Both the position numbers and the translations under genes were made by a program. A stretch of 25,598 nucleotides of DNA. It comes from an uncultured bacterium (GTDB lineage Bacteria > CAIJMQ01). The stretch spans positions 1 to 25,598 of the forward strand of contig CAIJMQ010000017.1 in NCBI GenBank assembly GCA_903821905.1. The letters run 5' to 3'. Below the pieces are notes generated by a model. That model was not told the DNA's origin. It ran no database searches and saw only the letters and a list, made by a program, of their open reading frames with translations. How positions within the stretch are numbered: the first letter of the stretch is position 1; each line of letters begins with the position of its first letter. Shown one piece after another: positions 5,771 through 10,690 of the stretch.

Positions 5771-7951
5771 ATGTTCATAGACCCTGTGTGTGGTATGAAG
5801 GTTGATGAAAAAACCGCCGTAAAATTAGAAAAAGACGGCAAAGTTTATTATTTCTGTAGTGAACATTGTAAGAATAAATTCTTATCAAAGGATAATCTGG
5901 AAATGTCTGGTGCTAAACATGAAGGGCATCAGGCTCATCATGGACACGGGGAACAGATAGTTGGCGGAGGATGCTGCGGACATAACCATTCAGGACATCA
6001 TGAACACATGGTTGCTGATTTTAGGAAACGGTTCTGGATTTCTTTAGTTATTACTGTACCAGTACTTATCCTTTCCCCGATGATTCAGCAATTTCTTGGG
6101 CTGGGGACAACAATTAGATTTATCGGAGATTTATATTTACTCTTCGTGTTTTCTTCCATAATATTTTTCTATGGCGGGCGACCCTTCTTAAAAGGATTAG
6201 TAGACGAATTTAAAGACAGGCAACCCGGCATGATGACCCTTATAGCCATAGCAATTACAATCGCATATGTATACAGCGCAGCAGTTGTATTTGGCTTAAG
6301 CGGAAATATATTTTTCTGGGAACTAGTAACTTTGATAGATATTATGCTTCTGGGGCACTGGATAGAAATGAAATCTGTTATGGGAGCTTCCAAGGCACTT
6401 GAAGAATTAGCCAGACTTATGCCTTCAGAAGCTCATAAAGTAATGCCTGACGGAACTATAAAAGATGTGCCGTTGGATGAACTAAATATAAATGACAAAA
6501 TTATCATAAAACCAGGAGAGAAAATTCCCGCGGACGGAGATATCGTTGAAGGAGAAAGTTCTATAAATGAAGCTATGCTTACAGGTGAGTCTAGGCCTGT
6601 ACCCAAGAAAATGGGAGGCAAAGTCATAGGTGGCTCTATAAACGGTGAAGGTTCGCTGACGGTAGTAGTTAAGAAAACCGGTAAAGATTCATTCTTGTCG
6701 CAAATTATAAATCTGGTTCAGGAAGCGCAACAGAGCAAGTCCAGAACGCAAGATTTAGCTAATCGTGCTGCATTATGGCTGACAATTATTGCAATAAGCT
6801 GTGGTGTAGTCACTCTTTTTGTATGGCTTGTCTTAATGCATAAAGATTTTGCATTTGCAATTGAAAGAACCGTGACCGTTATGGTAATTACCTGTCCACA
6901 TGCTTTGGGATTAGCTGTGCCGCTCGTAGTAGCCGTTTCAACGACACTTGCTGCAAGCAACGGTTTACTTATACGTAACAGAGCTGCTTTTGAAAGGGCA
7001 AGAAACATACAGGCAATAATATTCGATAAAACGGGAACGCTTACAGAAGGGAAATTCGGCGTAACCGATAAAATTGTTTTTACAAGTGATATTAAAGAAG
7101 ATGAGCTTTTAAAATACGCTGCATCAGTAGAAGCGCGTTCCCAGCACCCCATAGCAAAAGGAATTGCAACTTCCGTAAAAGATGTTATTCCTGTGGAAGG
7201 ATTTAAAGCTATAACGGGTAAGGGTGCCGAAGGAAAAGTAAATGGAAAAAACATTAAAGTAGTAAGTCCGGGTTATTTACGAGAAAAGAATATACCAATG
7301 AATGATGAGCGGATAAAAAAGCTTTCTTCCCAGGGTAAAACCGTTGTTTTTGTAATGATTAACGGAAAGCTTAAAGGTGCAATTGCACTTGCCGATATCA
7401 TCAGGCCTGAATCTAAAAAAGCAATTTCGATGCTTAAGAAAATGGGTGTTAAATGCATGATGCTTACAGGTGATAATAAACAGGTTGCTCAATGGGTATC
7501 GGAAGAAATAGGGTTAGATGAATATTTTGCAGAAGTTTTGCCTCAGGAAAAAGCATCGAAGGTAAAAGAGATTCAACAGAGAGGGTTAATTGTAGCAATG
7601 ACAGGGGATGGAGTGAATGATGCCCCGGCGTTAGCTCAGGCGGATGTAGGTATCGCTATCGGTGCAGGTACCGATGTTGCTGTTGAAACTGCGGACATTA
7701 TCCTTGTGAAAAGCAATCCGCTTGACGTTGTGGCAATTATTGGTCTTGCACGGGTTACATATAAAAAAATGATTCAGAATCTGGCGTGGGCTACTGGATA
7801 CAATGCTTTTGCTATTCCTCTTGCAGCCGGTGTTTTGTATAAATCAAACATACTTCTAAGCCCGGCTATGGGTGCAGTACTTATGTCTTTGAGTACAGTG
7901 ATAGTGGCAATCAATGCGAGATTAATTTCTTATAAAAAGGAGGAGGATTAA
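5771..7951 (+). CDS. copB: CopB-type heavy-metal P1B-ATPase with N-terminal YHS domain
   Basis: This 726-aa inner-membrane ATPase probably exports copper or a related soft metal. The N-terminus is a YHS/TRASH-type domain (DPVCGM at 4-9; C7, C29, C33) followed by a His/Cys-rich stretch at about 50-79. The pump core shows TGES at 271-274 (actuator), CPH at 375-377 in the transport helix, phosphorylation site DKTGT at 419-423, HP at 459-460 and hinge TGDGVND at 611-617. YN is at 677-678 and MSLSTVIVA at 705-713. CPH with these last helix motifs defines the CopB (P1B-3) group rather than CopA (CPC); reported substrates are Cu(II) and Cu(I). It starts 10 bases after ldh, and its stop lies 2 bases before the wrbA ATG, so it is firmly in an operon. 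The ribosome site before it is weak. Confidence 0.9.
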   Translation: MFIDPVCGMKVDEKTAVKLEKDGKVYYFCSEHCKNKFLSKDNLEMSGAKHEGHQAHHGHGEQIVGGGCCGHNHSGHHEHMVADFRKRFWISLVITVPVLILSPMIQQFLGLGTTIRFIGDLYLLFVFSSIIFFYGGRPFLKGLVDEFKDRQPGMMTLIAIAITIAYVYSAAVVFGLSGNIFFWELVTLIDIMLLGHWIEMKSVMGASKALEELARLMPSEAHKVMPDGTIKDVPLDELNINDKIIIKPGEKIPADGDIVEGESSINEAMLTGESRPVPKKMGGKVIGGSINGEGSLTVVVKKTGKDSFLSQIINLVQEAQQSKSRTQDLANRAALWLTIIAISCGVVTLFVWLVLMHKDFAFAIERTVTVMVITCPHALGLAVPLVVAVSTTLAASNGLLIRNRAAFERARNIQAIIFDKTGTLTEGKFGVTDKIVFTSDIKEDELLKYAASVEARSQHPIAKGIATSVKDVIPVEGFKAITGKGAEGKVNGKNIKVVSPGYLREKNIPMNDERIKKLSSQGKTVVFVMINGKLKGAIALADIIRPESKKAISMLKKMGVKCMMLTGDNKQVAQWVSEEIGLDEYFAEVLPQEKASKVKEIQQRGLIVAMTGDGVNDAPALAQADVGIAIGAGTDVAVETADIILVKSNPLDVVAIIGLARVTYKKMIQNLAWATGYNAFAIPLAAGVLYKSNILLSPAMGAVLMSLSTVIVAINARLISYKKEED

Positions 7952-7953
7952 AC

Positions 7954-8568
7954 ATGAATCCTAGAATTATGGTTCTATATTACAGTATGTTTGGTAACAC
8001 TTACTTGATGGCAAAGGCGGTTTGCGAAGGTATAGAAGCTGAGGGTGGAGAACCTATCTTGCGCACTGTGCCGGAATTGATGCCTCCAAAAGTTATTGAG
8101 AGTAACGAGAAAATGAAAAAAGCAAAACAATTACAGAAAGATATACCTTTAGTTAAGATGGAAGAATTAGAAAACATTGACGGTATAATTTTGGGTTCTC
8201 CGACAAGATTCGGTAACATGTGTTCGCAACTTCGGAATTTTCTTGACCAGACAGGAGAATTGTGGATGAAGGGTGCTCTTATTGATAAACCTGCCGGCGT
8301 ATTCTGCTGTACTGCTACCTTGCACGGGGGGCAAGAAACAACGCTTATATCTATGATGTTTACACTCATACATCATGGCGCAATAGTTGTCGGTGTCCCA
8401 TATAGCGTAAAGGAATTAGTATTGACTACAAGCGGAGGAACTCCTTATGGTCCTACTGCTGTAGTGGGTGCTTCATCAGACCAGCTACCAACAGAAACAG
8501 ATTTAAAAATTGCCCGCGAATTAGGCAAAAGATTGACGAGAATTGCAAAGAAGCTGAACAAAAACTAA
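7954..8568 (+). CDS. wrbA: WrbA-family NAD(P)H:quinone oxidoreductase (flavodoxin-like)
   Basis: This FMN enzyme reduces quinones by two electrons, avoiding semiquinones that would produce superoxide. The 204-aa protein has the flavin phosphate loop SMFGNT at 11-16, the WrbA hallmark SPTRFGNM at 82-89 with FLDQTGELW near 96-104, and HGGQETT at 124-130. Length and motifs fit the family throughout. A very strong AAGGAGGAGG ribosome site lies inside the end of the preceding ATPase gene, with the start 2 bases after its stop, so translation is probably coupled. Its position beside the metal pump and the superoxide and diiron genes supports a role in oxidative defence. Confidence 0.92.
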   Translation: MNPRIMVLYYSMFGNTYLMAKAVCEGIEAEGGEPILRTVPELMPPKVIESNEKMKKAKQLQKDIPLVKMEELENIDGIILGSPTRFGNMCSQLRNFLDQTGELWMKGALIDKPAGVFCCTATLHGGQETTLISMMFTLIHHGAIVVGVPYSVKELVLTTSGGTPYGPTAVVGASSDQLPTETDLKIARELGKRLTRIAKKLNKN

Positions 8569-8577
8569 AATAAACAT

Positions 8578-8793
8578 ATGGGAAAGTTCCTTACTCCTTA
8601 TCGTTTAATTATATCTTCGGGTATCCTGGCTTTAATTTCTTTAATTATTACTATTACTCTTGGTATTACAGGAAGAAATTTCATACTTCATAAAATAAGC
8701 GGGCTTACTACACTGCTATTTGTTTTAATCCACATGTCTCCGACTATTTACAACAGAATAAAACTAATAAAGAAAAGGAGGATAGCTAAGTGA
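8578..8793 (+). CDS. small two-helix membrane protein, possible haem binder
   Basis: This 71-aa protein has two hydrophobic helices, about residues 9-30 and 37-54, and a very basic C-terminus (KLIKKRRIAK) that should stay in the cytoplasm. The second helix starts with H38 (LHKISG) and ends with H52 (IHM). Two histidines 14 apart on one membrane helix are common in b-type haem proteins, and the segment recalls small cytochrome b-like or DUF4405-like membrane proteins; this is resemblance only. With only two helices, a haem site might need a dimer or a partner. Its stop overlaps the GTG start of the next gene in GTGA, so the two products are likely made in fixed ratio and may act together. There is no strong ribosome site before this ATG. 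Confidence 0.72.
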   Translation: MGKFLTPYRLIISSGILALISLIITITLGITGRNFILHKISGLTTLLFVLIHMSPTIYNRIKLIKKRRIAK

Positions 8794-9131
8794 AAAGTTT
8801 AATATTATCTTTGATTCTTGTGTTTTTTGTTATTTCTTCGGTTTTTGCCAATGCTCCTAAAAGTGTTGATATAACTGTATCCGAAAAAAACATATCGGTG
8901 AACATCTCTCATCCTGTCTCAAATCCAAATAATCACTATGTAAAAAAGGTAGAAGTGACTTTAAATGACCAGAAAATAATTGAACAGACTTTTTCCCTTC
9001 AGGAAGGTAATTCGCAAGAAGCAATATATCATATCCCCGATTTGAAAATATCGGATACTGTCACAGTGGAAGCTTTTTGTAATATGGGAGGAAGTCAGAA
9101 AAAAACAATTATAGTGCAGTCAGTAAAGTAA
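8790..9131 (+). CDS. exported superoxide reductase-like (neelaredoxin/SoxZ-like fold) protein with incomplete metal site
   Basis: This 113-aa protein has a signal peptide (MKSLILSLILVFFVISSVFA, likely cut after residue 20). The mature part resembles the superoxide reductase iron domain. HPVSNPNNH at 41-49 parallels the HPNTTEH ligand loop of true SOR, and FCNM at 96-99 parallels the axial cysteine motif CNVH. H41, H49 and C97 are kept, but the ligand His after the Cys is Gly (CNMG) and no EKH ligand occurs near the N-terminus. Classical SOR activity is therefore doubtful; the same fold is used by SoxZ and other carrier or structural domains. The start is GTG overlapping the previous stop, with AAAGGAGGA at 8775-8783 upstream, so it is coupled to the small membrane protein. 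Homology is inferred from motifs only. Confidence 0.7.
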   Translation: MKSLILSLILVFFVISSVFANAPKSVDITVSEKNISVNISHPVSNPNNHYVKKVEVTLNDQKIIEQTFSLQEGNSQEAIYHIPDLKISDTVTVEAFCNMGGSQKKTIIVQSVK

Positions 9132-10294: not shown

Positions 10295-10690
10295 ATGGCA
10301 GATGTAAAAGATTTATTCAAGAGTGCTGACTGGAAAAAAGAAAAACATGTTCCGGTAATTGATGCTCCTGACAAGGTTAAGAAAGGCGAAATTTTCAATA
10401 TTAAAGTTGAGATAGGCAAAGAAATCCCTCATCCCAATACCACTGAACACCATATCCGTTGGGTTGATGTTTATTTTTTGCCTGATGGCGAAGCATTCCC
10501 TTGCCAAATTGGCAAACTCCAGTTTGAATCTCACGGAGAATCAGCCCAAGGCCCCAATACAGGCACGGTTTATACACATCCTATAGCAGTTATTAGTTTA
10601 AAGACCGGTAAATCGGGGATAATATTCGCTTCATCATATTGTAATGTCCATGGTTTATGGCAGAATTCCAAAGAACTAAAAGTAGAGTGA
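10295..10690 (+). CDS. sorA: superoxide reductase, one-iron (neelaredoxin) type
   Basis: This enzyme reduces superoxide to hydrogen peroxide without releasing oxygen, an anaerobe strategy. All active-site elements are present in the 131-aa protein: E16-K17-H18 (EKHVP), H46 and H52 in HPNTTEHH, and C116/H119 in CNVHGLW. These provide the four His and one Cys of the square-pyramidal iron centre and the catalytic Glu-Lys pair. It lacks the N-terminal desulforedoxin domain of two-iron desulfoferrodoxin; that domain occurs as a separate gene at 4665. A strong AAAGGAGGT ribosome site precedes the ATG. It has no signal peptide, so it is cytoplasmic. Peroxide it makes could be removed by the rubrerythrin-like protein just upstream. 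Confidence 0.95.
   Translation: MADVKDLFKSADWKKEKHVPVIDAPDKVKKGEIFNIKVEIGKEIPHPNTTEHHIRWVDVYFLPDGEAFPCQIGKLQFESHGESAQGPNTGTVYTHPIAVISLKTGKSGIIFASSYCNVHGLWQNSKELKVE

Follow-up and report, generated by a model that had tools for sequence, protein, structure and literature searches.

A recurring gene pair for a two-helix membrane protein and an exported superoxide reductase-like protein looks like an undescribed redox or metal-handling module of uncultured bacteria

In the window analysed here, a stretch of 25,598 nucleotides (contig CAIJMQ010000017.1) from the 1.3-Mb draft genome of an uncultured bacterium, a gene for a tiny membrane protein overlaps a gene for an exported protein resembling superoxide reductase (SOR), raising the question of whether the two products act together and what they do. 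The original prediction had proposed a membrane-to-periplasm redox or metal-binding pair distinct from a standard SOR. Public MAGs exist for two relatives in the same family, labelled Candidatus Omnitrophota and Candidatus Ratteibacteria. The features of the locus are as follows.

7954–8568, forward strand: WrbA-type NAD(P)H:quinone oxidoreductase (NCBIfam equivalog match)
8578–8793, forward strand: small-protein open reading frame, a 71-aa two-helix membrane protein with an HX13H motif (H38 to H52)
8689–8691, forward strand: codon for H38, invariant in the alignment of small homologues
8731–8733, forward strand: codon for H52, invariant in the same alignment
8775–8781, forward strand: AAGGAGG, ribosome-binding-like sequence for the exported gene, within the 3' end of the small gene
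8790–9131, forward strand: exported-protein open reading frame, 113 aa, GTG start, predicted SoxZ/SOR-type beta-sandwich
8790–8849, forward strand: predicted signal peptide, residues 1–20, cleaved between VFA and N; cleavage position aligned in 31 homologues
8850–8852, forward strand: first mature residue, Asn21 in the window, His in 29 of 33 homologues
8910–8912, forward strand: codon for H41, candidate metal ligand, invariant in 33 homologues
8934–8936, forward strand: codon for H49, candidate metal ligand, invariant in 33 homologues
9078–9080, forward strand: codon for C97, candidate axial ligand, invariant in 33 homologues
9087–9089, forward strand: codon for G100, where SOR has the ligand His of CNxH; never His in the family
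10295–10690, forward strand: cytoplasmic SOR with the full ligand set (Pfam and NCBIfam matches, PDB relatives)

The overlap of the 71-aa and 113-aa reading frames in GTGA (8790–8793) was confirmed in the sequence. The AAGGAGG stretch lies 8 nt ahead of the GTG start and is retained even in relatives in which the rest of the small gene is gone, and the WrbA-type gene ends 9 nt before the small gene. Values of dN/dS for the exported gene were 0.09–0.17 in five of six comparisons, the sixth (0.04) having a near-saturated dS, while the small gene gave 0.20–0.28 between the window and the family relative G002. Since both genes are under purifying selection and recognisable homologues of both proteins are present in other phyla, the pair is beyond chance, and both genes are real.

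An AlphaFold model of the exported protein, built from three input sequences, has seven strands and a pLDDT of 75.7. The best Foldseek matches include SoxYZ and SOR at E values of about 0.003, none falling below 0.001. SoxZ heads the VIA ranking (Z 10.8), followed by the SORs of Giardia (10.1) and N. equitans (9.3), with SOR chains overall at 8.8–10.1 and unrelated FnIII/Ig domains reaching about 9. Structure prediction and both fold comparisons thus agree with the SOR/SoxZ-like sandwich that had been anticipated, and this modelled fold is supported, though not sharply set apart from other Ig-like folds. The balance is tipped by weak sequence matches: the window protein matches the neelaredoxin-domain model TIGR00332 with 25.7 bits (E 1.1e-5; cut-off 61.9), and PF01880 is matched weakly by 7 of 17 family members, the window protein scoring 19.4 bits, below the cut-off of 22.2. 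Single-sequence searches against solved structures returned nothing useful for either protein, family profiles against solved structures gave chance matches only, and a profile-profile comparison of the exported family with SOR, whose alignment was shallow, was weak at E 0.056. SoxZ, the best structural match, is likewise a periplasmic sandwich domain, and its Pfam model is matched weakly by 8 of 17 members; however, the exported family has an invariant His/His/Cys set, the window protein lies far under the SoxZ model cut-off (TIGR04490, 13.6 versus 76 bits), and no SoxY gene adjoins the exported gene at the locus.

A family profile built from six sequences was searched against 386 diverse genomes. 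Homologues were found in about 3–4% of them, 20 genomes scoring at E 0.01 or better with the weakest five or six chance-like, and further phylum searches added more. H41, H49, C97 and G101 are invariant in 33 of 33 members read, an invariance that is partly circular because part of the set was picked by requiring the H/H/C/G motif; none of the strongly profile-matched loci examined lacks the motif, and locus L005, missed by the picker, carries it too. None of the 33 members has His at the CNxH position (C97-N-M-G100 in the window protein), and the EKH loop is absent from all 33. The window protein has H41, H49 and C97, Gly100 in place of a ligand His and no EKH loop, as described, and an incomplete SOR ligand set is a property of the whole family.

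These residues bear on whether the exported protein could still function as a SOR despite its changed ligands, receiving electrons through the small protein. The predicted fold, the axial Cys and two of four His placed comparably to those of neelaredoxin or desulfoferrodoxin centre II, the neelaredoxin-domain match, the anaerobe hosts and the oxidative-stress genes alongside all recall SOR. Unlike SOR, however, the protein is exported, its family usually has a His-His loop two residues longer and, in most members, a mature N-terminal His, and the Fe(His)4(Cys) set that includes the EKH and CNxH His is not found in it. With family scores under their cut-offs, SoxZ scoring as well as SOR in the fold comparison, and a complete SOR encoded about 1.2 kb downstream, continued SOR activity appears improbable.

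Several exported-family loci have further features. In the window's relative G003, locus L006 (1430–1843 and 2385–2807) encodes a further exported SOR-like paralogue that has diverged more and lies close to an ordinary SOR gene; no small membrane gene accompanies it. Desulforedoxin-like small proteins adjoin the exported gene at L046 (4681–4959, Pfam match) and L003 (about 1270–1390, by eye).

With the signal-peptidase cleavage site assigned by eye from A-x-A, the first mature residue is almost always His, the exceptions being the window protein (Asn), L041 and L052 (both Thr) and L049 (Asn). A His directly after the signal peptide is a hallmark for finding N-terminal-His metal proteins (PMC12537917), which the family shows (29/33) but the window protein, with Asn21, does not. 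Like CopC, LPMO, DUF4198 and DUF6702, the family combines a secreted beta-sandwich with a first mature His and further His residues; it differs from them in its SOR/SoxZ-type sandwich, its extra invariant Cys and its membrane partner, and scans of the exported family gave no match to Pfam DUF4198 or DUF6702. The VIA alignments begin with model residue 23 against residue 9 of 6gq8 and with model residue 16 against residue 18 of 4bk8, while alignment to the window's own SOR puts the EKH His near residue 10 of 6gq8 and residue 25 of 4bk8. Taken together, these alignments would have the mature N-terminus (residue 21) precede the position of the EKH His by two or three residues, and the N-terminal His could replace that ligand, a placement read from alignments rather than coordinates. 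It is made uncertain by a plain sequence alignment, which disagrees in setting the mature N-terminus about five residues after the EKH His. The original prediction of a broken iron site thus holds in that the SOR ligand set is incomplete, but it missed the near-invariant N-terminal His, which turns a broken site into a possibly rebuilt one.

The same residue underlies the main competing explanation, metal capture and delivery, in which the exported protein would be a periplasmic N-terminal-His carrier for Fe, Ni, Cu or Co and the small protein a docking or transfer partner whose His bind metal ions instead of haem. The mature N-terminal His, together with two His and a Cys, fits such a carrier, and there is precedent in the N-terminal-His sandwich proteins DUF4198 and DUF6702, which bind Ni, Co or Cu and showed little or no oxidase or peroxidase activity; DUF4198 genes are located near NikR (PMC12537917). 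The homologues that lack the N-terminal His, including the window protein itself, speak against it.

For the small protein, His 38 and 52 had been placed on one helix at a haem-type spacing. In the two-helix model (pLDDT 73) both lie on the second predicted helix, residues 35–70, the structure-prediction alignments having comprised 2–3 sequences. Small homologues are 55–71 aa long and every one contains HX13H, the spacing of the TM3 pair of NOX2 (His 101/115, with 209/222 in TM5; PMC3591440). Ferric_reduct is the commonest weak Pfam match (8 of 11 small homologues, best E 0.005, below cut-off), covering the first half of the domain where ranges are given; the window protein scores 15.9 bits against PF01794, for which the cut-off is 28. 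In an hhalign comparison with the ferric reductase of G009, the helix pair and both His fall on TM2-TM3, although the match is weak (P 0.02). The small protein accordingly shares the TM3-type spacing of ferric-reductase domain proteins (FRE, NOX, MsrQ/YedZ) but each chain comprises just two helices with a single HX13H, and it lacks both the TM5 partner and a flavin domain. On these sequence comparisons it looks like half of a ferric-reductase membrane domain, equivalent to TM2-TM3.

A second His pair in the same chain was found only in G416, where a 116-aa membrane protein (L095, 1492–1842, reverse strand) contains the two-helix unit twice in tandem and hence two HX13H motifs, as a fused homodimer of the small unit would look. 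In small homologues from outside the window's family, the loop carries a charge of +4 or +5 and the termini are little charged, which argues for a loop inside and both ends outside; the +7 C-terminal tail of the window protein is at odds with this topology.

Whether the two His would bind haem is less clear. HemC was absent from 21 of the 22 genomes tested, every pair genome included, and AhbA/B-type proteins from all 22, the controls being detected. The exception for HemC, G400, has no pair, and cytochrome bd, searched as a sign of haem use, occurs only in G228 and G400, both among the genomes of G357's phylum without the pair. These drafts are incomplete, although the pattern of absences is consistent. 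Since the pair genomes have neither HemC nor AhbA/B-type proteins nor cytochrome bd, any haem would need to come from scavenging, or a different ligand would serve; scavenging is possible in the clade of G228, which has cytochrome bd without HemC. The predicted spacing has stood up across the homologues, while haem itself in the small protein is unproven, and the missing haem-synthesis genes fit His that bind metal ions in a metal-capture system.

Three groups of uncultured bacteria, unrelated to one another, contain the pair: the small gene is the immediate upstream neighbour of the exported gene in the window and G002, in G357's phylum (8 of 8 genomes) and in G441 and G448. All eight genomes of G357's phylum with the exported gene have the small gene, with outer neighbours partly shuffled, and none of the five without it does (Fisher p 0.0008). 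In G341's phylum the small gene is present in 5 of 9 genomes with the exported gene versus 1 of 26 without (Fisher p 0.002); both tests treat genomes as independent. Among the genomes of the latter phylum with the exported gene, G441 and G448 carry the small gene next to it, G443 and G446 carry it elsewhere, G416 has it duplicated and apart from the exported gene, and four lack it; G442 has it without the exported gene. Many other exported-family genomes have no detected small gene.

Within the window's family the small gene is intact in the window alone. A 4-bp deletion in G002 shortens it after the second His, both His being kept; in G001 a 3' remnant is fused to the start of a dehydrogenase; and in G003 it carries an internal deletion, for which an assembly error is possible given the contig coverage of 2.85. 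The exported gene is kept in both G001 and G003. Read from the window's relatives alone, with three of four small genes lost or shortened, the pairing had appeared spurious, a reading overturned by wider sampling.

Such losses (two of four family genomes, with one more shortened), and the unlinked copies in G443 and G446, would be expected if the two genes were incidental neighbours whose products do not act together, the small gene being dispensable or decaying in the window's lineage. The two genes are, however, independently adjacent in two further phyla, in one of which they co-occur strictly, and they are under purifying selection, which makes this the least probable of the explanations considered. 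Adjacency in distant genomes, which the prediction of a coupled pair had called for, was thus found. There are also exported proteins with no small partner, some of them encoded beside a full-length ferric reductase. The latter is the case in G009 and G296, where the exported gene is followed by a complete ferric reductase with FAD and NAD domains in place of the small gene. In G002, a soluble flavin dehydrogenase is encoded upstream in the neighbourhood of the pair; it shares 31% identity with the dehydrogenase half of the ferric reductase from G009 and is a candidate electron donor.

Many loci have redox-defence neighbours, including peroxiredoxin, a Fur-type regulator, rubrerythrin, ferritin, nitroreductase and 2-oxoacid:ferredoxin oxidoreductase. 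In the window itself, 730–1374 encodes an 8-oxoguanine DNA glycosylase (Ogg-HhH), a further oxidative-damage gene, and 1387–2256 a protein whose rubrerythrin-like N-terminal part is fused to a VIT1-type membrane domain; the latter gene is conserved in the relatives. The P-type metal ATPase directly upstream of the WrbA-like gene (5771–7951) has a YHS domain at its N-terminus and also contains a His-rich stretch and a CPH motif. By eye, the exported gene at L080 (G453) stands beside FeoB and CbiM/PDGLE-type genes.

Metal handling is favoured by the locus in G244 (L043, 1777–9166), where the exported gene has an iron-dependent repressor/FeoB on one side and NikR/CbiM/PDGLE on the other, the iron-dependent repressor/FeoA fusion and NikR having been confirmed by Pfam; the P-type metal ATPase and a ZIP transporter near the pair in the window point the same way. 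However, in G009 and G296 a full NAD(P)H ferric reductase takes the place of the small gene, and this substitution, like the redox neighbours at most loci, weighs against metal capture and for electron transfer. An electron relay serving a mononuclear metal site is thus favoured, tentatively and with a little under even confidence, and metal capture, as its main rival, is a real but lesser possibility. Against the relay stand the lack of haem-synthesis genes, the loss of the small gene in G001 and G003 and its absence from many exported-family genomes, the missing N-terminal His and the +7 tail of the window proteins, and the sub-cut-off Ferric_reduct matches.

In the relay, the exported sandwich would carry one mononuclear metal site. 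Of the SOR ligands it retains the axial Cys and two loop His but neither the His after CN nor the EKH loop, and the mature N-terminal His probably adds a ligand in most members. The small protein, as the TM2-TM3 equivalent, would pair as a homodimer, whose two HX13H helices may form two bis-His sites, one near each membrane face. Electrons could then pass between the cytoplasmic side, where the partner would be a flavin reductase or quinol, and the metal protein in the periplasm, with reductive defence or control of metal redox state in the periplasm of strict anaerobes as the likely use. The two genes, their recurrent pairing, the predicted fold, the invariant residues and the selection on both genes are observed, whereas in this scheme we infer the dimerisation, the bound cofactor, the direction of electron flow and the substrate. 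Its fullest version, a homodimerising half ferric-reductase wire in bacteria apparently unable to make haem, possibly using scavenged haem or a non-haem metal to feed a periplasmic SOR-fold site rebuilt around the N-terminal His, is speculative and, taken as a whole, rather unlikely.

In the papers searched, neither an exported SOR-like protein with an N-terminal His nor a two-helix ferric-reductase fragment is described, in line with the original view that no named system has this form, and the exported family therefore appears undescribed. The pair, apparently a redox or metal-handling module not described before, is not categorically new, since its parts resemble the N-terminal-His metal proteins, the SOR fold and the gene pairing with a periplasmic protein in MsrPQ. 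Both proteins are short and directly testable.

Collectively, the exported family represents a SOR fold with a different metal site, and among transmembrane electron-transfer units of the ferric-reductase type the small protein may be the smallest. If true, this would inform how the four-His ferric-reductase core arose through the doubling of a helix pair, and how anaerobes not yet in culture deal with metals or the by-products of oxygen beyond the cytoplasm.
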